From Candidatus Saccharibacteria bacterium (GTDB taxonomy: Bacteria > Patescibacteriota > Saccharimonadia > CAILAD01 > BJGX01), in assembly GCA_016191105.1 (NCBI GenBank), contig JACPPH010000005.1:64721-104685 (forward strand): a stretch of DNA of 39,965 nucleotides, written 5' to 3'. This document shows, in pieces, positions 16,750 to 38,065 of the stretch. The notes under the pieces were generated by a model that was not told where the DNA came from, did not search any database, and worked only from the letters and a program-made list of their open reading frames with translations. Positions within the stretch are counted from its first letter, which is position 1, and each line of letters starts with the position of its first letter. The translations under genes were made by a program, and so were the position numbers.

Positions 16750-16836
16750 GCCGCGGTGGTGGAATTGGCAGACACGCTAGCCTTAGGAGCTAGTGAGGTA
16801 ACACTCGTGAGAGTTCGAGTCTCTCCCGCGGCACCA
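16750..16836 (+). tRNA. tRNA-Leu (anticodon UAG)
   Basis: Acceptor GCCGCGG pairs with CCGCGGC (16826-16832), discriminator A, CCA encoded (16834-16836). Anticodon stem CTAGC/GCTAG holds loop CTTAGGA, anticodon TAG, reading CUA and likely other CUN codons. The long variable arm AACACTCGTGAG and T-loop TTCGAGT are as expected for a class II tRNA-Leu. Confidence 0.96.
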
Positions 16837-17379: not shown

Positions 17380-18087
17380 ATGAGATTCTGGTATCGAAAG
17401 ACAGCGCGGGTGATCTTTACCGGAGTCAGCCACGCACAGAAGTCTGAGCCGTTTCCGTTCTTGGAGCTGGATCTAGACGGCATTGAGGGAGATAGTTATT
17501 ACGGTCAAACCTGTCGCTTGGGTGCTGCCGGCAGCGGCCCAATTGCCCGCTACTTTGGCTACTCCAATAAGGATAGGTGCGAGAATGACCGCCAGTTCTC
17601 GGCAGTCTCGCTTGCCGAGATCGAGCGTTTGATAAGCGAGCTTGGACTTATAGCGGAGCGCAAGGGTGAGCCATCGCTTACGCTCAAGAAGGGTGTTGCC
17701 CAATGCATGGCGGTGAACTTGGTGATCGATGGCATTGACTATTTCGATAAGTTGCCACCTGGGTCGGTCATGGTTTTCGAGAATCCCCTTGGTGAAGACA
17801 CCTTTCAGCGAGGCACTATGCTCGAAGTTGGCAGCCATAGCTCACCGTGCCTTGTGCCGCACAGCAACATCGTAGAAATGATGCGGGCCGAGGTGGATCC
17901 GTTTTGGGGACCCAAAGAGCGCTTTGGTAAATATGCCACCGCCTGGCAGGGAACCTTCGGTAGGGTGAAGCTGGGTGGCGACATATTCCCCAACCGCGGG
18001 GTTGAGGTGTGGGTGCCTGGGCACATCAAGATGGAGGAGTTCGCTCTGCAAGACGGCTTTGAGTCGATCGAGCTCCCAGCGCACTAG
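17380..18087 (+). CDS. MOSC-domain protein
   Basis: 235 residues. MOSC domains carry sulfur or bind a molybdenum-cofactor-like group; the stand-alone bacterial ones resemble YiiM. Supporting motifs: LDLDGIEGDSYYG (the family's DGIxGDRH), RQFSAVSLAEIERL, the central CMAVNLVIDGIDYFDKLPPG (family xNLxxxGxxxxxLxxG), and a conserved-type Cys157 in SHSSPCLVPH. Substrate unknown; no molybdenum cofactor genes are seen here. It has its own promoter, a Shine-Dalgarno within a small GGCT/AGCC hairpin, and a strong terminator. Codon use (more G/C-ending codons) differs from the clp, rec and rpo genes, which may point to transfer. Confidence 0.75.
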   Translation: MRFWYRKTARVIFTGVSHAQKSEPFPFLELDLDGIEGDSYYGQTCRLGAAGSGPIARYFGYSNKDRCENDRQFSAVSLAEIERLISELGLIAERKGEPSLTLKKGVAQCMAVNLVIDGIDYFDKLPPGSVMVFENPLGEDTFQRGTMLEVGSHSSPCLVPHSNIVEMMRAEVDPFWGPKERFGKYATAWQGTFGRVKLGGDIFPNRGVEVWVPGHIKMEEFALQDGFESIELPAH

Positions 18088-18165: not shown

Positions 18166-18218
18166 TGTCGCTGACCGAAGCGAATCTGAACAAGTGAATA
18201 GGAAAGAAGGTGGTCACA

Positions 18219-18659
18219 GTGACCGCAACGAAAAACGAACGCGGGCTTACCGACGAAGAGATGGAAGTCTTCGGTGAGCTCAAGCGAAGGATCAGGGCTT
18301 CCGCCGAGGCCTACTTGGCTTCACCGAACATCAAGAAGCTTGCCGAGTGCGCGCCGGTGATCCTCGAGGTCCTGCAAGAGGAAGATGACCCCGTGCTGGT
18401 TCTGAAGGCCCTCACAGAGCTCTACTACGAGGAGATCTACTGGGCGTTCAAGCAGTTCCCTATGTACGAACTGGTCGTCGACGGCAAGTCCAGGTGGTTC
18501 ACGCTGGGCAAGGCTGGCCCCGTGTATGACAACGGCCACATTCAGGTGCGTTTCGGCACCGAGGTCATCCTCAACAACCATGGGGAAACCAGAGCGATGA
18601 CCGATGCCGACAAGAAGGCGATCTCAGATGCAGCCGATGAATACAGCGCTAGCAAGTAG
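18219..18659 (+). CDS. hypothetical protein, G+C-rich accessory gene
   Basis: 146 residues from GTG 18219, chosen because GGAAAGAAGG ends 8 nt upstream; an in-frame GTG at 18210 lies inside that Shine-Dalgarno. Mostly helical first half (DEEMEVFGELKRRIRASAEA, then LEVLQEEDDPVLVLKALTEL) and a beta-rich second half with aromatic residues (YELVVDGKSRWFTLG). No TM segment, signal peptide or catalytic motif is seen, and I do not recognise the family. 34 of 60 bases at 18241-18300 are G or C, higher than the core genes nearby. Its leader contains CCGAAGCGAA, resembling leaders of other accessory genes in the window. Confidence 0.75.
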   Translation: MTATKNERGLTDEEMEVFGELKRRIRASAEAYLASPNIKKLAECAPVILEVLQEEDDPVLVLKALTELYYEEIYWAFKQFPMYELVVDGKSRWFTLGKAGPVYDNGHIQVRFGTEVILNNHGETRAMTDADKKAISDAADEYSASK

Positions 18660-18725
18660 ATCTTGACCCACAAGCTAAAAAGGAGTAGAATCTCTCGGTA
18701 CTGGGCCTTCCAAGCTCAAGCACCA

Positions 18726-18797
18726 GTGGCTGTAGCTCAGAGGTTAGAGCAGGTGCCTCCAAAGCACCGCGCGGGGGTTCGAATCCCTCCAGTCACG
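18726..18797 (+). tRNA. tRNA-Trp (anticodon CCA)
   Basis: Acceptor GTGGCTG pairs with CAGTCAC (18790-18796); discriminator G73 fits Trp identity. D-stem GCTC/GAGC; anticodon stem GGTGC/GCACC with loop CTCCAAA, anticodon CCA; T-loop TTCGAAT. The 3' CCA is not encoded. Confidence 0.95.
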
Positions 18798-18821
18798 CGT
18801 AAAATGCATAAAAATATATAT

Positions 18822-18927
18822 CCTCGGGCCATAATGCCAAGGCCCCTGCCGGTTAGTAAGGCGCAAGCGAGCACTCGCAGTTCAAGAGTGCTTTTGCCAA
18901 ATGTGCCACCAAACGGTAAGCCCGAGG
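18822..18927 (+). ncRNA. candidate structured RNA of unknown class
   Basis: Closing arms CCTCGGGC (18822-18829) and GCCCGAGG (18920-18927) pair perfectly over 106 nt. Inside, AGCACTC/GAGTGCT forms a 7-bp hairpin with a 9-nt loop, itself framed by GGCGCAAG and CTTTTGCC. An A/T-rich TATATA box ends just before the closing helix and could be its -10. It lies between tRNA-Trp and a tRNA-like gene. It has no SRP GGAAG motif and was not matched to tmRNA, 6S or RNase P. Confidence 0.4.
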
Positions 18928-18962
18928 CTCCTGGGGTAAAATAAAAAGTAAAAATGCTTCGT

Positions 18963-18990
18963 GGTGGACGGTTTCCGAGCCCGTTCCACC
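18963..18990 (+). other. short hairpin upstream of the tRNA-like gene
   Basis: GGTGGA-CGG pairs with CCG-T-TCCACC around a 9-nt loop. It has no T run, so it is not a standard terminator; it may be a processing or folding element. Confidence 0.35.
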
Positions 18991-18996
18991 GCACCC

Positions 18997-19073
18997 GGTC
19001 GGGCAAGCTCAGTATTGGTAGAGCGTCAGCTTATCACGCTGAAGGTTCGCCGGTTCGATTCCGGCCCCGACCA
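18997..19073 (+). tRNA. tRNA-like gene with anticodon ATC, possibly a pseudo-tRNA
   Basis: Acceptor GGTCGGG/CCCGACC (7 bp), D-stem GCTC/GAGC, anticodon stem TCAGC/GCTGA, T-stem GCCGG/CCGGC with loop TTCGATT all pair. The anticodon loop is TTATCAC, so the anticodon is ATC (Asp GAU codon), whereas bacterial tRNA-Asp uses GTC in CTGTCAC. Other faults: three nt (CAA) between acceptor and D-stem with no U8, a 6-nt variable loop, discriminator A instead of the Asp G73, no CCA. It could be a decayed tRNA-Asp copy or a repurposed tRNA. Confidence 0.6.
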
Positions 19074-19102
19074 CGCACCACTCGTAATAGGAAAGGACTA
19101 GC

Positions 19103-19247
19103 GCCAAGTACTGTCCGGAAAGCTACTTGGCCTGTCTCCGACTGAAGCGAGTGTGAACCATGGGTGCCGCCTTCCCTTGTGCGGGGTTAGTGGCGAGCTT
19201 CGGCTCAACTCTGGTTCAAACGCACCGAGGCTTCGCTCCGGTGTGCC
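19103..19247 (+). other. hairpin-rich segment, candidate untranslated RNA or leader
   Basis: Perfect stem GCCAAGTA/TACTTGGC (19103-19110, 19124-19131), a GAGC-TTCG-GCTC tetraloop hairpin (19195-19206) and a CACC-GAG/CTC-GGTG hairpin near 19224-19243. It ends at the terminator 19248-19275. A 41-codon ATG frame (19160-19285) runs through these stems into the terminator, so coding is doubtful. The stretch GACTGAAGCGAG resembles the leader of the gene at 18219. Confidence 0.35.
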
Positions 19248-19275
19248 AAAGGGCGTCCCTGCGGGGGCGCCCTTT
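19248..19275 (+). terminator. hairpin terminator upstream of tig
   Basis: AAAGGGCG (19248-19255) and CGCCCTTT (19268-19275) around a 12-nt loop; the downstream tract has only a short T run (AATTTT). Confidence 0.65.
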
Positions 19276-19307
19276 CGAATTTTAGGCTAGAAATAATTTA
19301 ACCAATC

Positions 19308-19316
19308 TGTTATACT
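19308..19316 (+). promoter_or_regulatory. extended -10 (TGTTATACT) of tig
   Basis: Ends 9 nt before the ATG, so the leader would be about 3 nt. No Shine-Dalgarno is present. Confidence 0.5.
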
Positions 19317-19325
19317 TTCACAGTT

Positions 19326-20600
19326 ATGAAGCATTCTATTAGCAAAAAATCCAGCACCGGCATCACTCTAAGCATAAGTGTCGACGAACAATTTATTAGC
19401 CCTTATAAACAAGCTGTGCTCAAACGGCTCAAAAAAGATCTAAAAGTTGATGGCTTTCGACCCGGCCAAGCGCCCGATCATATAGCCATTCGCCAGATTG
19501 GCGATGACCGCGTCCAGGCCGAGGTGATTGAAGAAGTAATTACGCATGCCTACACCCGCGCGGTACGCGAACAAAAGCTCGATACCATTGCCTCCCCCAA
19601 AATCAGTCTCAAAAAATTTGTGCCTTATAGTGAAATAGAATTTGAGGCCGAGGTGGCAACCATGCCCGAGATTAAATTCGACCACACTAAGCTGCGAGTT
19701 AAGCCAAAAGAAGTCAAAGCCGAGACTAAAGAGGTTGAGGAGACATTAGCCGGCATGCAAAAACAAATGGCCGAACGCAAGCCCAGCGAGGGCCCGGCCA
19801 AAGATGGTGATGAGCTAAAAATCGATTTTGAAGGCAAACGTGGTGGCAAGCCGGTTGAAGGTGCGGCCGCCAAAGATGCCGCAATTACAATTGGCGATAA
19901 GCAGTTTATACCAGGGTTCGAAGAGAACTTAGCCGGGCTTAAAAAGGGTGACAAGAAGACCTTTGATGTCACATTCCCCAAAGACTATCACGCCACAGAG
20001 TTAGCTGGCCAAAAGGTTGAATTCAGTGTGCAAGTGCACGAAATACACAACATGATCAAACCCGAGATCAACGATGATTTTGCAACCCATGTAGGCAAGT
20101 TCAAGAACTTAAAAGAGCTTAAGGCTGACATAGAAAAAACCATCAAGGCTCAAAAAGAGGCTCAAAATGCGCAGGAGTATGAGAATAAGGTGGTTGATGA
20201 GTTAATAGACAAAACCAAGTTCGATGTGCCGGAATTCTTGCTCGAAGACAATGAGCACCGCTTGCAGCATGAGGTCGAGGACAACCTAAAGAACAGCGGC
20301 ATGGATCTTAAAAAATGGCTGGAAATTCAGAATAAGACCGAAGACGATTTTAAAAAAGAACTTCGCACCGAGGCCGAACGCCGGGTTAAATTGGGCATTC
20401 TTATGCGTTACATTATAGAAAAAGAAGACATTAAAGTTAGCGATGCCGAGATCGATGCCGAAATGGAACGACTGCGCAGCCAATATAGCGACCCCAAAAT
20501 GCAAGAGGAGCTAACTCATGGGCATTTTCGCGATGACTTGCGAAACCACATGATGACCCAAAAAGCTGTTGCCAAGCTTGTGGGCTACGCCAAACAGTAG
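19326..20600 (+). CDS. tig: trigger factor
   Basis: 424 residues. Ribosome-bound chaperone and peptidyl-prolyl isomerase. The N-terminal ribosome-binding domain has the loop DGFRPGQAP (E. coli GFRxGKxP). The FKBP-type PPIase insertion (about 155-240) contains GDELKIDFEGKRGGKPVEG and IPGFEENLAGLKKGD. The C-terminal arms (about 250-424) are charged and helical. Length is close to the standard 430. It is followed by clpP after 83 nt with its own promoter, the common tig-clpP order. The near-leaderless start suggests efficient initiation without Shine-Dalgarno. Confidence 0.96.
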   Translation: MKHSISKKSSTGITLSISVDEQFISPYKQAVLKRLKKDLKVDGFRPGQAPDHIAIRQIGDDRVQAEVIEEVITHAYTRAVREQKLDTIASPKISLKKFVPYSEIEFEAEVATMPEIKFDHTKLRVKPKEVKAETKEVEETLAGMQKQMAERKPSEGPAKDGDELKIDFEGKRGGKPVEGAAAKDAAITIGDKQFIPGFEENLAGLKKGDKKTFDVTFPKDYHATELAGQKVEFSVQVHEIHNMIKPEINDDFATHVGKFKNLKELKADIEKTIKAQKEAQNAQEYENKVVDELIDKTKFDVPEFLLEDNEHRLQHEVEDNLKNSGMDLKKWLEIQNKTEDDFKKELRTEAERRVKLGILMRYIIEKEDIKVSDAEIDAEMERLRSQYSDPKMQEELTHGHFRDDLRNHMMTQKAVAKLVGYAKQ

Positions 20601-31689: not shown

Positions 31690-31729
31690 AGCCCCGACGA
31701 ATCGGGTGCCCGTCGGGGCTTCAGTTTTT
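31690..31729 (+). terminator. strong hairpin terminator
   Basis: AGCCCCGACG (31690-31699) and CGTCGGGGCT (31711-31720) followed by TCAGTTTTT on the plus strand. The minus-strand gene ends at 31721 right beside it, so it separates two converging transcripts. Confidence 0.75.
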
Positions 31730-32113
31730 GACGACAGGACAGATTTTGTCGTGTTCGTCCATATCAGTTTCGAGCACCTGACGCTCGCACCGGCAGCAAA
31801 CCACAACCACCACCAGCTTGTAGTTGAGCCTGTAGTCTCTCTTTGACAAGCTCAGACGCTGAACATAGTCGGGGTGAGCGACATATCGGCGAATATCGCT
31901 GCGGTAGTCAACGATAGGACCGAATGACTCCTGGATTCTACGCAGGGTTTGCTCGAATCCGCTAATGGAGTCTGTGCTGTGCATGGCAGCGCTTCCACGC
32001 GGGATTTGGCTTGGCTCAAGGGTTGAGCACCACTCTTTATACAAATCTCTGAGTTGTTTTTCCGTCAGGCCTTCGGGGTGTTCTTCGAGGGCTTTGACTA
32101 TGTACATATACAC
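31721..32113 (-). CDS. hypothetical protein with C-terminal C2HC zinc-finger-like motif
   Basis: 130 residues from GTG (AGGAG 6 nt upstream). The first half is helical (EHPEGLTEKQLRDLYKEW). The C-terminus has CCRCERQVLETDMDEHDKIC, with Cys-x2-Cys then His-x4-Cys spacing, so a zinc-binding end is likely. No family recognised. Last gene of a tight minus-strand trio (18 nt after the HTH gene), so likely acts in the same process; a DNA- or RNA-binding role is an inference. Ends in TGA at the terminator hairpin. Confidence 0.75.
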   Translation of the reverse strand: MYMYIVKALEEHPEGLTEKQLRDLYKEWCSTLEPSQIPRGSAAMHSTDSISGFEQTLRRIQESFGPIVDYRSDIRRYVAHPDYVQRLSLSKRDYRLNYKLVVVVVCCRCERQVLETDMDEHDKICPVVKN

Positions 32114-32131
32114 GAGTTTCTCCTCTGTCGG

Positions 32132-32359
32132 TCAAAGCAGGTTGATCAGGTACTCATCGCCCCAAATGTTCATGGGGTGTAGGTTGAGGCTAGTGGCGAT
32201 TTGGTTGGCTGTATCTATGCGAATACGGTGCTTGCCGTGTCGCCACCGGTTCACGGTTTCGCGCGACACTCCCAAGCGCTTGGCCATTTGCACATCATTG
32301 GTGCGCGACAGTGCGGCGAAGAGTGACTGGGGGTCGAGCGTGGATTGTTTGCGTGGCAT
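32132..32359 (-). CDS. small HTH (Cro/CI-like) DNA-binding protein
   Basis: 75 residues from ATG 32359, chosen because GGAAG lies 7 nt upstream; an earlier in-frame TTG would be inside that Shine-Dalgarno. The helix-turn-helix is DVQMAKRLGVSRETVNRWRHGKHRI written in two parts: helix 2 VQMAKRLGVS and recognition helix RETVNRWRHGK, followed by IDTANQIATSLNL, the usual XRE tail. It is probably a repressor of its own operon or an antitoxin-like regulator. It sits 23 nt after the CPDC gene and 18 nt before the C2HC gene. Confidence 0.82.
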   Translation of the reverse strand: MPRKQSTLDPQSLFAALSRTNDVQMAKRLGVSRETVNRWRHGKHRIRIDTANQIATSLNLHPMNIWGDEYLINLL

Positions 32360-32382
32360 GACTCTACTTCCTTTCTTCAAGT

Positions 32383-32841
32383 TTAATTCTTGCTAGCACC
32401 AACCCGGACTGGTTGGGGCAGGCCTTGTGCTTCAGCCCACTGAGTAACGGCTGGGGGCCAAAAGTCGGTGCCTATGCTTTGAGTCCAGACCTCACGAACG
32501 GCTAGCTCGGGCATATCTACAATGACGTCAATGTGTTCGGGCAGTTTGCAATCGGGGCAGGTGGTGTAGACTTCTTCGGGCCGGCCTTGCACGTGCACTA
32601 CCTGTAATTGGCTCTCTGGCACTAGGTGGGTTATGAAGGCGTCGACCGTGCAAAGCCCCAGCCCGTGTTCGATTAACGACTTTATTACTATTTGTCGGAG
32701 CTGTTGGTTGTAAGCTTGTACTGCCGTGTCGATCACTCGGTGGGTCGAAACTTCGGTTTTAGCTTGTTGGTTGTTTTGGTCGAGCTGTTCTATAAACTGC
32801 TTGACAGTTTGCAGAGCAACTAGGTCGTATAGTTGTATCAT
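32383..32841 (-). CDS. hypothetical protein with a CPDC zinc-ribbon-like motif
   Basis: 152 residues, first gene of the trio; AAGGAG precedes the ATG. Long helical N-terminal part rich in Gln and Asn (LQTVKQFIEQLDQNNQQAK). A central CPDCK motif occurs only once, with another Cys in LGLCTVD, so at most half a zinc site is seen. The C-terminus ends WPPAVTQWAEAQGLPQPVRV. No known family. Its upstream region is shared with the divergent winged-helix/Nudix gene and is rich in TTGAC-type inverted repeats. Confidence 0.72.
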   Translation of the reverse strand: MIQLYDLVALQTVKQFIEQLDQNNQQAKTEVSTHRVIDTAVQAYNQQLRQIVIKSLIEHGLGLCTVDAFITHLVPESQLQVVHVQGRPEEVYTTCPDCKLPEHIDVIVDMPELAVREVWTQSIGTDFWPPAVTQWAEAQGLPQPVRVGASKN

Positions 32842-32960
32842 TTTTAAATCTCCTTGCTTAAAATTTCAAAAAAAAATTAATTGACGTTTTGAGCTACGAA
32901 CTAATTTTCAAGGTACGCCCATAGCATAAGTCCGATCAATTTAACCTTCTAGACTAGACC

Positions 32961-32997
32961 TTTTGACGTAATTTAAGTTGAGTCAAAATCATTGACT
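32961..32997. promoter_or_regulatory. cluster of TTGAC inverted repeats, operator candidate
   Basis: TTTTGAC (32961-32967) faces GTCAAAA (32982-32988), and AGTCAA (32981-32986) faces TTGACT (32992-32997) over a 5-bp gap; another TTGACG is at 32881. All lie in the 190-bp divergent region between the CPDC operon and the winged-helix/Nudix gene. The likely binder is one of the two neighbouring regulators. Confidence 0.45.
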
Positions 32998-33015
32998 TAA
33001 TTGTCACACCCACTG

Positions 33016-33024
33016 TGCTACACT
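33016..33024 (+). promoter_or_regulatory. extended -10 (TGCTACACT) of the winged-helix/Nudix gene
   Basis: Ends 7 nt before ATG 33032; predicts a leaderless transcript. The TTGACT at 32992 is 21 bp upstream, too far for a standard -35. Confidence 0.55.
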
Positions 33025-33031
33025 GAGTGTA

Positions 33032-33700
33032 ATGATGCACATAATTCAAAAAGAAATCCTGGCCAAACTAATAGGCGCCAAAAGCCTCCGGTTTTCTCAA
33101 CTCAAACCGGTAGATATTGAGAGTAATCACTTTATGTATCACTTGCGAGCCCTGATTCGCGAAGGCTTGGTCGAAAAAAAACCAACCGGGGAGTATTCGC
33201 TTACCACCGAGGGCAAACTCTATGCCGACCAAGTTAACCTCAAAACTCTAAAAGTTCGGCGGCAACCCAAGATAGTTACCTTGGTGGCAGTACAGAACAA
33301 AGAGGGGAATTGGTTATTATATAAGCGCAACCACCAGCCGCTGATTAATCAAATTGGCTTTCCCTACGGCAAACTCCACTTGGGCGAAACGGTTAACGAG
33401 GCGGCCGAACGTGAGTTACTCGAAAAAACAGGCCTTAAATGCAAATTAACCCACAAGGGCGATGGCTATATTATTATGCACGAAGACGGCAAGCCAGTGA
33501 GCCAGATTTGTTTCCACTTGTTTTATGGCAAAAACCCGACCGGGAATATGAAGACCGAGACACACTATGGCAAGATCTTTTGGTCTAAACCAGGCGAGGA
33601 TTTTAAAACCAAGCCGCATATGGCGGCCCTGCATGATTTAGTGAAGCTGGCCAGCCGTAAACAAAAAGACAGATTTTTTGCCGAACTAACTTATAAATAA
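33032..33700 (+). CDS. winged-helix/Nudix fusion, putative regulator
   Basis: 222 residues; ATG 33035 is an alternative start. Residues 1-70 form a winged helix: LRFSQLKPVDIESNHFMYHL, the recognition-type segment ALIREGLVEK, and wing GEYSLTTEGKLYAD, resembling ArsR/PadR-type folds. Residues about 80-205 are a Nudix domain with box GKLHLGETVNEAAERELLEK then TGL (113-135); one glutamate of the EE pair is Lys, so catalysis may be weak. NrtR regulators join the same two domains in the opposite order. It may sense a nucleotide derivative. Divergent from the HTH trio and preceded by the TTGAC repeats. Confidence 0.75.
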   Translation: MMHIIQKEILAKLIGAKSLRFSQLKPVDIESNHFMYHLRALIREGLVEKKPTGEYSLTTEGKLYADQVNLKTLKVRRQPKIVTLVAVQNKEGNWLLYKRNHQPLINQIGFPYGKLHLGETVNEAAERELLEKTGLKCKLTHKGDGYIIMHEDGKPVSQICFHLFYGKNPTGNMKTETHYGKIFWSKPGEDFKTKPHMAALHDLVKLASRKQKDRFFAELTYK

Positions 33701-33712
33701 TTGCATATAAAT

Positions 33713-33742
33713 GGAGAAGCCCCGGCCGAAGCCGGGGTCTCC
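33713..33742 (-). terminator. long G+C-rich hairpin between convergent transcripts
   Basis: CCCCGGC (33720-33726) and GCCGGGG (33731-33737), extended by GGAGA/TCTCC. On the minus strand the loop is TTCG, which fits a terminator for the minus-strand pair; the T run is poor. It may serve both directions. Confidence 0.6.
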
Positions 33743-33782
33743 GGTCTCGATCGGGGCGATGTTGCGTTCGCTCGCTTATGGC

Positions 33783-34172
33783 TCAGTTCTTTACGCGCCT
33801 GACCTCCTCCCTCAGGAACTCCTCGAGCTCCTTCATGAGTTTGCATTCGGCCTCACGCAGGGCCCTCTCGGCTTTCTGGGGATCCTTCTCGTCCACGACA
33901 GGCTGTTGAGGTTGCACGGTCCACAGCTGTTTGCCATGATTGCTGAAGACGTTGATTTCGACGGGGCGGATCGTGCTAGCCACCTCGCCGATCTCAAATC
34001 GAGTCTTCGGATCGCGACCAGCTGACTTCGGCGAAGCCACAACGACCTTCTTCACCAGGTCATCGTTGTTGCAGATTCGGCCGAAGATTGAGCCTGTGCC
34101 TGGCAACAGCGGGCTACCGCTGTGCTTTACTTTGGCCGCTCCCTTGAGTGTGGCTACTTTCTGTTTTCCCAT
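33783..34172 (-). CDS. hypothetical protein, second gene of a minus-strand pair
   Basis: 129 residues; GAGGAGG lies 7 nt before the ATG. Basic, Gly/Ser-rich N-terminus (GKQKVATLKGAAKVKHSGSP), a middle possibly beta-rich (VKKVVVASPKSAG), and a highly charged helical C-terminus (AERALREAECKLMKELEEF) that could form a coiled coil. No TM segment or recognised motif. Codon use is richer in C/G third positions than the rpo genes. It follows the neighbouring gene by 28 nt, so the pair is one transcript ending at the hairpin 33713-33742. Confidence 0.72.
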   Translation of the reverse strand: MGKQKVATLKGAAKVKHSGSPLLPGTGSIFGRICNNDDLVKKVVVASPKSAGRDPKTRFEIGEVASTIRPVEINVFSNHGKQLWTVQPQQPVVDEKDPQKAERALREAECKLMKELEEFLREEVRRVKN

Positions 34173-34200
34173 CTGCTTCCTCCTCTGTAGTCGGATGGGC

Positions 34201-34605
34201 TTACTTGGACTGCTGGATGTCTATGTGGTCGAGCGAGTGTTGCTCATGGTGGCGAAAAGCTTCTTCTTGCAGATCGTCTTTGGTGATATCGATCTGGTCG
34301 AGCACCAGCTGTAGCTGCGGGTGGATGAGCAGTTGCGAGCTCACCAACAGATCTATCAGCTTGAGTAGCCAAACGACAGCCAACGACTTTGACTCATCAG
34401 CGTCGGTATCGGAGACCAGGCTCCAATACTTCTTGCCACTTGCAACCAGCCACCCCTCGATCTCGTGGTAGCTGGTGTCTACGTCGTGAGGCGCAACACT
34501 GCTATCGACCAACTTTGCCAGATCTAGCGCAAACGCTAGACCACCCTGGCGACAGAGGTCGACATAATGCATGGCCTCGTGGTGCGCGCGGGATTTAGTT
34601 AGCAC
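34201..34605 (-). CDS. hypothetical protein, first gene of a minus-strand pair
   Basis: 134 residues from GTG 34605, chosen because GGAGGAGG ends 7 nt upstream; the frame extends further but into the promoter. Largely helical: RAHHEAMHYVDLCRQGGLAF, then LAVVWLLKLIDLLVSSQLL (amphipathic rather than a clear TM segment), and a His-rich end EEAFRHHEQHSLDHIDIQQ. The His/Glu-rich ends might bind metal, but no known motif fits. It lies in the accessory block between rpsG and fusA, transcribed away from fusA. Confidence 0.72.
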   Translation of the reverse strand: MLTKSRAHHEAMHYVDLCRQGGLAFALDLAKLVDSSVAPHDVDTSYHEIEGWLVASGKKYWSLVSDTDADESKSLAVVWLLKLIDLLVSSQLLIHPQLQLVLDQIDITKDDLQEEAFRHHEQHSLDHIDIQQSK

Positions 34606-34655
34606 GTTTTCACCTCCTCCCGGAGTTGTAGGAAACATTCTTGCGAACAGATTAC

Positions 34656-34683
34656 ATATTAACATAAAAGAGTTAAAAGTCAA
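34656..34683 (-). promoter_or_regulatory. promoter TTGACT-16-TAATAT of the minus-strand pair
   Basis: On the minus strand TTGACT is 34683-34678 and TAATAT is 34661-34656, 16 bp apart. The start point would be near 34649, leader about 44 nt. Confidence 0.6.
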
Positions 34684-34701
34684 CAGATTAGACCCAGCCA
34701 C

Positions 34702-37037: not shown

Positions 37038-37071
37038 GTTACTGACCGACTAGCTCCGAAAGCGAGGCGCA

Positions 37072-37380
37072 ATGCCCTCTACATTGGAACCACACGACTG
37101 GAATGAGACCGTTGCGTGGGGGATCGAGCAGGTTCTGTCTGGAAAGACCGCCGAATGCCGCTCCCTGAAGGATCTCGAGCGGCTGATTGCCGCGCGGTTT
37201 CGCGAAGAACGCCAATCCAGCAGCGACAACCATCATTACACAACGCCAGTAACCACTCCTGGTATGTGTGCCGAGACGATCCTGTGGATGCAAGCCAACG
37301 ATCATCCAGGCTTTCCGCTGGTGGAGGGTCTTCATGAAGAGGCAGCTGCCTACTACGCGGAGACACATTCAAAGCAATAG
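37072..37380 (+). CDS. hypothetical protein in the fusA-tuf gap
   Basis: 102 residues, acidic and helical (VAWGIEQVLSGKTAECRSLK, then LEGLHEEAAAYYAETH-like end). Two Cys (in TAECRS and GMCAET) and several His are present, but no recognised metal site. No TM segment. Family not recognised. Its leader CTCCGAAAGCGAGG resembles that of the next gene, and it has its own promoter and terminator, so it is a self-contained unit inserted between fusA and tuf. G+C-rich codon use differs from the flanking genes. Confidence 0.7.
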   Translation: MPSTLEPHDWNETVAWGIEQVLSGKTAECRSLKDLERLIAARFREERQSSSDNHHYTTPVTTPGMCAETILWMQANDHPGFPLVEGLHEEAAAYYAETHSKQ

Positions 37381-37439
37381 GTCTGGGGTCGATACCACAC
37401 ATTGTCTGCGAGGAAAAGAGAAGTCACACCAATGACGTT

Positions 37440-37460
37440 CCCGCCTCGCGGGCTCTTTTT
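37440..37460 (+). terminator. terminator after the 102-residue gene
   Basis: CCCGC-CTC-GCGGG (37440-37452) followed by CTCTTTTT. Confidence 0.8.
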
Positions 37461-37469
37461 CGTTTATGC

Positions 37470-37498
37470 TTGTATTTTTTGCTAAATTGGCGAATAAT
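37470..37498 (+). promoter_or_regulatory. promoter TTGTAT-17-AATAAT
   Basis: Boxes at 37470-37475 and 37493-37498, 17 bp apart. The start would be about 37505, giving a leader of about 96 nt that contains the hairpin 37508-37564. Confidence 0.5.
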
Positions 37499-37507
37499 AC
37501 CGACCAC

Positions 37508-37564
37508 ACTCCGTGAGAACGGTTGTGAGGGCTGCCCGGATGTTTTAGGGCAGGGAAGCGGAGT
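37508..37564 (+). promoter_or_regulatory. structured leader of the 138-residue gene
   Basis: ACTCCG (37508-37513) pairs with CGGAGT (37559-37564); inside, CTGCCC (37532-37537) pairs with GGGCAG (37548-37553). The fold starts near the predicted transcription start and ends 36 nt before the ATG. No known riboswitch class is recognised. Confidence 0.5.
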
Positions 37565-37600
37565 ATTGTCAGTGTCGGCTCTACCGAAAGAGAGACCCGA

Positions 37601-38017
37601 ATGCCGAACGACGATACGCCCAAAGCAGCATCCGAAGAAGTAACTACCGAAGACAAGTTGGCGGCTCTGGCCGAGGACTCTGAGCTAGATCGCGCCGATC
37701 TGATTCGAGCTCTTCGCCAGACAGCTGATCTTCTGGAGCAACTCGAAGTTGATGTAGCGGAGCCGGCAGACCTAGATAACCCCAGGGTTCGCCAGGTGTT
37801 AATGGCCGAGGTACAGGAGCTAACGGGGCGAAAGCCCTCGAGGCAGCCGAGCCCAGACCATCCCGATCCGACCCGTCACCCCTCAGCCCATATGCCCGAA
37901 GGGACGGGCAAACCAGCTGATCCAGGGTCGCTCAAACGACTCCGCAACCGCATTGCCAACGAGGAGGTGGCTCAGCGCATGTTCGACGACAAGCCAGATC
38001 CACCAGTAGCCTCCTGA
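37601..38017 (+). CDS. hypothetical acidic, partly disordered protein
   Basis: 138 residues. An acidic N-terminus (EEVTTEDKLAALAEDSELD) leads to an amphipathic helix with heptad-like spacing (RADLIRALRQTADLLEQLEV), then a Pro/Asp/His-rich linker (RQPSPDHPDPTRHPSAHMPE) and a basic helical end (SLKRLRNRIANEEVAQRMF). No Cys, no TM segment, no known domain. It could be a small scaffold or nucleic-acid-linked factor, but this is only a guess. It has its own promoter, structured leader and downstream hairpin; the CCGAAAGAGAG leader resembles that of the preceding gene. Confidence 0.68.
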   Translation: MPNDDTPKAASEEVTTEDKLAALAEDSELDRADLIRALRQTADLLEQLEVDVAEPADLDNPRVRQVLMAEVQELTGRKPSRQPSPDHPDPTRHPSAHMPEGTGKPADPGSLKRLRNRIANEEVAQRMFDDKPDPPVAS

Positions 38018-38034
38018 TCAATCGCTCACGGCTA

Positions 38035-38065
38035 AATGGCTCTCACTCCTTTGCGGGGTGGGGGT
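38035..38065 (+). terminator. hairpin after the 138-residue gene
   Basis: AATGGCT (38035-38041) pairs with AGCCATT (38059-38065); inside, CACTCC pairs with GGGGTG. No T run follows, so it may be a weak or factor-assisted terminator or a 3' stability hairpin. Confidence 0.45.

Follow-up and report, generated by a model that had tools for sequence, protein, structure and literature searches.

The 39,965-nucleotide stretch of a Candidatus Saccharibacteria genome analysed here, which we call the window, contains a cloverleaf that ARAGORN calls tRNA-Asp(atc) (18997-19074). The question is whether this gene decodes at all: the preliminary description left a decayed tRNA-Asp, an insertion scar or a repurposed tRNA as its possible identities. 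The parts of the module are as follows.

18997-19073, + strand: tRNA-like module "tRNA-Asp(atc)" (ARAGORN, RF00005, direct reading)
18997-19003 with 19066-19072, + strand: acceptor stem of the module (direct reading)
19007-19024, + strand: D arm (direct reading)
19026-19042, + strand: anticodon arm (direct reading)
19049-19065, + strand: T arm (direct reading)
19073, + strand: discriminator (direct reading)

All stems are complete (acceptor 7/7, D 4/4, anticodon 5/5, T 5/5), and all 21 pairs are Watson-Crick. The linker reads CAA where U8-A9 is expected, that is, U8 is missing and one base is extra. The anticodon loop is TTATCAC with the anticodon ATC, and it retains U33 and the usual seven nucleotides. 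The variable loop has 6 nt, and the discriminator A73 is followed by C-G-C, with no encoded CCA. It means that the gene is just as first described: tRNA-like with four paired stems, ATC, no U8, the extra linker base, the 6-nt variable loop and A73. The RF00005 match of the module found with Infernal (45.7 bits, E 9.6e-7) has the second-lowest score among the 44 matches in the genome, and only a partial tRNA-Glu fragment scores lower. The cloverleaf folds at -32.7 kcal/mol, and an alternative fold of the same 77 nt is slightly more stable (-33.6), unlike the nearby tRNA-Trp, for which the cloverleaf is the best fold.

Bacterial tRNA-Asp has U8, a two-base linker, a GTC anticodon and G73. The module has none of these and no encoded CCA, and the tRNA closest to it in sequence is not a tRNA-Asp. 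The genome of the window (G000) is 928 kb in 10 contigs and 99.7% complete, and ARAGORN, run on the stretches around all Infernal matches, gave 43 tRNAs. Among them 41 encode CCA, and the only two without it are the module and the tRNA-Trp at 18726-18797. Elsewhere this genome has a normal, CCA-bearing tRNA-Asp(GTC) (L025), which answers the check proposed at the outset, and no conserved tRNA-Asp(ATC) was found in relatives that would be without a GTC copy. The CCA-adding enzyme, searched as the PF01743 family alone, was not found in any of the five genomes searched (G000, G001, G003, G006 and G023), while the control was positive in 10 of 10 bacteria. This family is patchy in the class Saccharimonadia (7 of 99 genomes) and was found in none of the 13 searched genomes of the family to which the window genome belongs. 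Our literature search found no paper on the CCA-adding enzyme in CPR/Patescibacteria. Because the module is without CCA, neither encoded nor to be expected from a PF01743 enzyme, it probably cannot be charged in the usual way in this cell, and a role as a functional tRNA-Asp is unlikely.

Some other features of the tRNA set were observed. No other G000 tRNA has A at position 34, and arginine CGN is read by the anticodons GCG and TCG. The assembly is without tRNA-Thr(GGT), tRNA-Thr(TGT), tRNA-Tyr and a CCA-bearing tRNA-Trp. We considered whether the CCA-less tRNA-Trp is the only tRNA-Trp of the cell; an assembly gap is more likely, because the four missing genes form one cluster in G003. Directly after an intact tRNA-Glu there is a copy of the 3' half of tRNA-Glu with CCA (L029 1-415, G000:C8:174736-175150), which is possibly an old integration scar.

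The module does not stand alone. It lies inside a proposed noncoding unit in a GC-rich island, with the following features.

16750-16836, + strand: CCA-bearing tRNA-Leu(TAG), the conserved neighbour on the left side of the island (ARAGORN)
17380-18087, + strand: orphan ORF of 235 aa, in the same GC-rich island as the unit
18210-18659, + strand: orphan ORF of 149 aa, in the same GC-rich island as the unit
18663-18691, + strand: promoter-like site TTGACC-17-TAGAAT, directly behind the 149-aa ORF and its stop codon (consensus scan, 10/12; a consensus match only)
18698-19280, + strand: proposed unit of structured noncoding RNA, about 580 nt long (fold z, GC; predicted)
18726-18797, + strand: CCA-less tRNA-Trp module, anticodon cca, discriminator G followed by CGT (ARAGORN; RF00005, 64.4 bits)
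18806-18957, + strand: structured spacer between the two tRNA modules (predicted fold; pairing details differ between the short and the whole-unit fold)
18961-18992, + strand: hairpin directly upstream of the tRNA-like module (predicted fold)
19079-19153, + strand: long hairpin domain (predicted fold)
19154-19218, + strand: branched hairpin domain (predicted fold)
19221-19245, + strand: hairpin (predicted fold)
19248-19275, + strand: GC-rich hairpin of 12 bp with an imperfect T tract, a probable terminator (predicted fold)
19326-20600, + strand: ORF which we take to be tig (trigger factor), conserved right neighbour of the island, with a homologue in 237 of 244 class genomes, its own included

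The 583-nt unit folds at -240 kcal/mol (z -4.65), and none of 100 shuffled sequences was as stable. Its GC content is 0.573, against 0.462 in tig. Promoter-like sites are found four times in the stretch scanned, against 0.4 expected in shuffled sequences. The terminator scan did not report the hairpin at 19248-19275, whose T tract is broken. In the region 18650-19330, cmscan gave no Rfam family other than tRNA at E<=5, chance-level rows aside.

The two ORFs of the island gave no family in Pfam, PHROGs, NCBIfam or PADLOC. The 235-aa protein has no relative in the 243 other class genomes or in viral contigs; the 149-aa protein has none in viral contigs or phages, and only two weak matches (E~1e-3) in the 243 genomes. 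A tRNA-Leu(UAG) is also located upstream of tig in many relatives. An assembly chimera was judged unlikely, as the genes on either side of the island, tRNA-Leu and tig, are arranged as they are in relatives. The idea of an insertion scar can be kept in part, since the block as a whole forms an island with tRNA-Leu on one side and tig on the other.

Two other places in the window were observed. Positions 37039-38060, between an EF-G-like and an EF-Tu-like gene, are GC-rich (0.52-0.56) and hold two orphan ORFs (37072-37380 and 37601-38017) with no Pfam or PHROGs match. Positions 31720-34700, between ribosomal-protein and EF-G-like genes, form an island of small, mostly minus-strand ORFs with a NUDIX-looking gene; the ORFs tested there had no family match or a weak one.

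The upstream side of tig was read in 81 genomes, namely the window genome, 20 others (L082-L101) and a further 60 (L102-L161), where several stretches ended at contig ends. Odd, short, CCA-poor tRNA-like modules were found there in five of the 81: G000, G001, G006, G010 and G023. Four of them are among the 12 genomes of the window family, and one among the 69 elsewhere. G001 (JAUPVL010000016.1) has four modules, two of which have a two-base anticodon according to ARAGORN, and G023 (JACAFG010000003.1) has two. G006 (JAHFOQ010000004.1) and G010 (JAKOQC010000247.1) have one each; the former was detected by cmscan and not by ARAGORN, the latter by ARAGORN and not by cmscan at the gathering score. 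Left out of the count were a "tRNA-Thr" of 96 nt in L109, which cmscan did not see, and a tRNA-Leu without CCA in L226.

A scan for structure upstream of tig placed the five module loci at ranks 1, 2, 4, 7 and 8 of 81 (80 named loci and the window), with the rank taken from the mean of the three most structured 200-nt windows and the scores partly raised by the tRNA parts themselves. The difference between module loci and the others was significant for the loci with enough windows (5 against 73, Mann-Whitney p 2e-6); in L173 the unit was only partly inside the scanned stretch. Several windows outside the five module loci were equally structured, as in L166 and L167. These two have very stable hairpins upstream of tig (window z -8.3 and -8.5) and no tRNA-like modules there.

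Folded as whole units, G001 reached z -10.6 and G010 z -8.7, against -4.65 for the window. The units are about 0.56-1.2 kb in size, and all five have a promoter-like site TTGAC(A/C)-17-TA..T upstream and a hairpin or terminator downstream. Beyond the tRNA parts, blastn found no similarity of the window unit to the other units. What ties the window unit to its analogues is the position, the layout from promoter to hairpin, the lack of CCA, the C that follows the discriminator, and the structure; on these grounds they may be one class and may do the same job.

Two of the units can be aligned with each other. The common core of G006 and G010 has 413 columns with 83.5% identity, and the other large aligned blocks between the loci have 68-78%. 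Searched against 392 class genomes, the G010 core was found in G006 and G010 only. In the module of this core the anticodon arm differs at 14 of 17 positions and the remainder at 2 of 55 (p 2.5e-10, with the bounds of the arm set after looking). Five of the six pairs of the anticodon stem are changed and none is broken. The loop has four nucleotides, AGTT in G010 and TTCG (UUCG) in G006. The first module of G001 also has a simple arm in the predicted fold, a 6-bp stem with a TACG loop. In decoding tRNAs the opposite is expected, with the anticodon arm kept and the rest varying. Because the body is almost unchanged while a different anticodon arm, still with a paired stem, has taken the place of the old one, the pattern points to selection on structure and not on decoding. 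Over the whole core, both partners differ in 15 of 145 predicted pairs, and no pair is broken; this count uses two sequences only, with the structure predicted from their own alignment, and it lends modest support to structural conservation. ORFs of 91-117 aa are open on both strands through the G010 core (L162 4416-5035), and they were taken as incidental.

To look at its origin, we compared the module with 135 tRNAs: 40 of its own genome, 55 of an actinobacterial plasmid and three actinobacterial phages, 18 of relatives and 22 of a Ruegeria phage. The best match was the CCA-less tRNA-Phe(GAA) of the Tsukamurella plasmid, identical at 62 of 77 positions (80.5%), and the second-best had 74%. 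The tRNA-Phe of a Nocardia plasmid, added outside this set, has 60 of 77 (77.9%). The tRNA-Asp of G000 itself has 66%, and the four tRNA-Asp compared, this one included, have 57-69%, so a decayed tRNA-Asp is not what the body resembles. A discriminator A73 fits tRNA-Phe. As the closest match is a tRNA-Phe and tRNA-Asp is lower, we would regard the label Asp(ATC) as incidental. Counted per position, the differences are more frequent in the anticodon arm, 8 of 17 positions against 9 of 60 elsewhere for Tsukamurella and 7 of 17 against 11 of 60 for Nocardia. The other differences from both include the bases added in the linker, the D loop and the variable loop.

The 3' ends were also compared. 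C stands directly after the discriminator in all 10 modules of the five loci, and CCA is absent in nine; the exception is the G006 module, which is followed by CCA. In the actinobacterial set (the Tsukamurella plasmid and the three phages), 48 of 54 scored tRNAs are CCA-less, and in 47 of the 48 the discriminator is followed by C; in the Ruegeria phage 21 of 22 tRNAs have CCA. This comparison set left out tRNAs whose acceptor is paired at fewer than 6 of 7 positions. The CCA-less pattern with C after the discriminator fits a descent of the modules from actinobacterial mobile tRNA arrays. The C could also be a requirement of tRNA processing.

Such arrays occur on actinobacterial plasmids and phages, according to the consulted part of PMC5966550. 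Both window modules share with them the lack of CCA and the C after the discriminator. The arrays examined are dense with mostly ordinary anticodons; here there are one to four modules with odd anticodon arms, spaced by hairpins on a saccharibacterial chromosome. The window unit is not a dense array, as it has two modules only and one of them has a non-standard anticodon. A route of transfer from Actinobacteria to Saccharibacteria exists, because Actinobacteria are established hosts of some Saccharibacteria and actinobacterial CRISPR spacers co-target some saccharibacterial phages, as reported in the consulted part of PMC10746230.

Searches beyond the tig locus reached mainly the tRNA parts. 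With blastn at the "distant" level, the listed matches of the island in phages and of the unit in plasmids all lay in the two tRNA modules, and the listed phage matches of the G001 unit all lay in its tRNA modules. The G010 core had no match in phages, and the exact patterns had none in viral contigs. The island found itself and short matches in its own genome. A DNA search with 18980-19090 in 60 relatives matched ordinary tRNA genes and one short stretch without a tRNA call. Among covariance models, R1 (the 5' hairpin of G006/G010) gave nothing significant outside the two loci, its other rows being their own reverse strands or E>0.8. R2 (the G006/G010 module region) reached the G001 and G023 modules mainly by the tRNA part, and the window in the tRNA part only (E 0.015).

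Large RNAs found near tRNA islands offer a comparison. GOLLD and ROOL are RNAs of this kind, with a function given as not known, and the linker of GOLLD sometimes holds tRNAs (PMC12286853, consulted in part). GOLLD also co-occurs with mycobacterial tRNA clusters, as stated in the portion consulted of PMC9569102. Like GOLLD, the window unit is large and predicted to be densely folded, and it has a tRNA-Trp and a tRNA-like module inside. Unlike it, the units here contain tRNA modules with altered anticodon arms, and their size is about 0.56-1.2 kb. ROOL likewise shares the large size and the vicinity of tRNA islands (the same partly consulted source, PMC12286853), and differs in that the tRNA modules here are inside the unit. 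In the cmscan lists, GOLLD had no row in 18650-19330 (E<=5) or in the four analogue loci (E<=2), and ROOL had no match in the window unit or the four loci. The units may resemble GOLLD and ROOL in context, and because there is no Rfam match, membership is not claimed.

The tRNA-like domain also recalls tmRNA, and the G006 module has a weak tmRNA match (29.5 bits, below the cut-off of 47). A tmRNA or permuted tmRNA was ruled out, since a full tmRNA that scores above the cut-off is present separately in each of the five genomes; that of G000 is at G000:C6:45973-46365. This sub-threshold match and chance-level rows aside, no unit had an Rfam match other than tRNA. Our literature search found no paper that describes these units in its title or the start of its abstract, and in the literature found there appeared to be no large ornate RNA from Saccharibacteria.

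Repurposing is the best supported of the three possibilities named at the outset: CCA and a PF01743 match are absent, the predicted structure is dense, modules recur at this locus, and the arm is replaced in two relatives. We give a probability of about 0.5 to the reading that the module is a retired, non-decoding tRNA which serves as a structural or processing part of a larger folded noncoding RNA. We infer the transcription, processing and origin of the unit as follows. A noncoding RNA unit of about 580 nt, running from promoter to hairpin, would have been inserted between tRNA-Leu(UAG) and tig. Its module would derive from a CCA-less tRNA of actinobacterial plasmids or phages, most likely a tRNA-Phe. 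The acceptor/T half may be kept as a stable minihelix recognised by RNase P and perhaps RNase Z, and the module could then act as a processing signal and a protective cap inside the large folded RNA. The D and anticodon arms would be under no such constraint and could vary or give way to simple stems. Some observations speak against this. In the window module the 7-nt loop with U33 is still there and no tetraloop has taken its place. Its tRNA-Trp neighbour, which looks canonical but for the CCA, is as expected of a recently imported array. The G006 module is followed by CCA, and outside tRNA parts neither blastn nor the covariance models connect the window unit with the others.

Decay is the main rival and a serious one, because the window unit has no sequence homologue. 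Here an imported CCA-less tRNA-Phe of actinobacterial type would have lost its function and would be drifting, with the flanking hairpins as debris. The extra bases in the linker, D loop and variable loop and the altered anticodon loop look like drift, the adjacent tRNA-Trp is intact save for CCA, the island is GC-rich with orphan ORFs, and the search in 60 relatives found no counterpart beyond ordinary tRNA or short matches. Against decay, all 21 stem pairs are still Watson-Crick and the unit is far more structured than its shuffles; and analogues recur at the same locus, where that of G006/G010 is conserved above its neighbours with pairs kept. We therefore regard decay as a real possibility, though on balance not a likely one.

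It is improbable that the unit is a decoy or sponge, in which tRNA-like RNAs absorb tRNA-cleaving toxins or tRNA-binding proteins of the host or a phage. Changed anticodon loops on intact tRNA bodies would suit this role, and so would the co-targeting of saccharibacterial phages by Actinobacteria described in the consulted part of PMC10746230. A bait for anticodon nucleases should keep the anticodon loop, which is lost in G006 and G010, and the two orphan ORFs matched no defence family.

Still less credit is due to a working accessory tRNA of phage type, whose end would be completed by another CCA-adding activity, either here or inside an actinobacterial host. The retained U33 and 7-nt loop, and the C after the discriminator as in actinobacterial arrays, are what such a tRNA would show. 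PF01743 was not found, however; A34 sits on an Asp-type anticodon, U8 is missing, the linker has an extra base, the loops of the relatives cannot decode, and a normal tRNA-Asp is present. YrlA is a Y-RNA-like tRNA mimic for the Ro60 protein, and such an RNA is the least plausible identity here: the tRNA-like body without anticodon in G006/G010 resembles it in having no decoding role, against which cmscan, where lower overlapping matches of the same clan are dropped, listed no YrlA row in the window unit or the four analogue loci.

For annotation, the preferred reading of a retired tRNA advises caution: in genomes without CCA-adding enzyme, CCA-less tRNA calls with odd anticodons would best not be annotated as decoding tRNAs. 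The organism is very small, and probably it lives on other bacteria. We speculate, with considerable doubt, that the large ornate noncoding RNAs in the family of the window genome form a class of their own that is new. Retired tRNA modules, of the type found on actinobacterial mobile elements, would be among their components, with anticodon arms that became plain or tetraloop-capped stems under structural selection. Cells without CCA-adding enzyme would make these RNAs, and the place or the target of their action may be the actinobacterial host or phages shared with it. If this is true, the few large ornate RNAs listed from bacteria so far would gain candidates from a lineage for which the literature found had none. 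It would also mean that tRNAs of mobile elements can lose their decoding role and persist as components of large folded RNAs.
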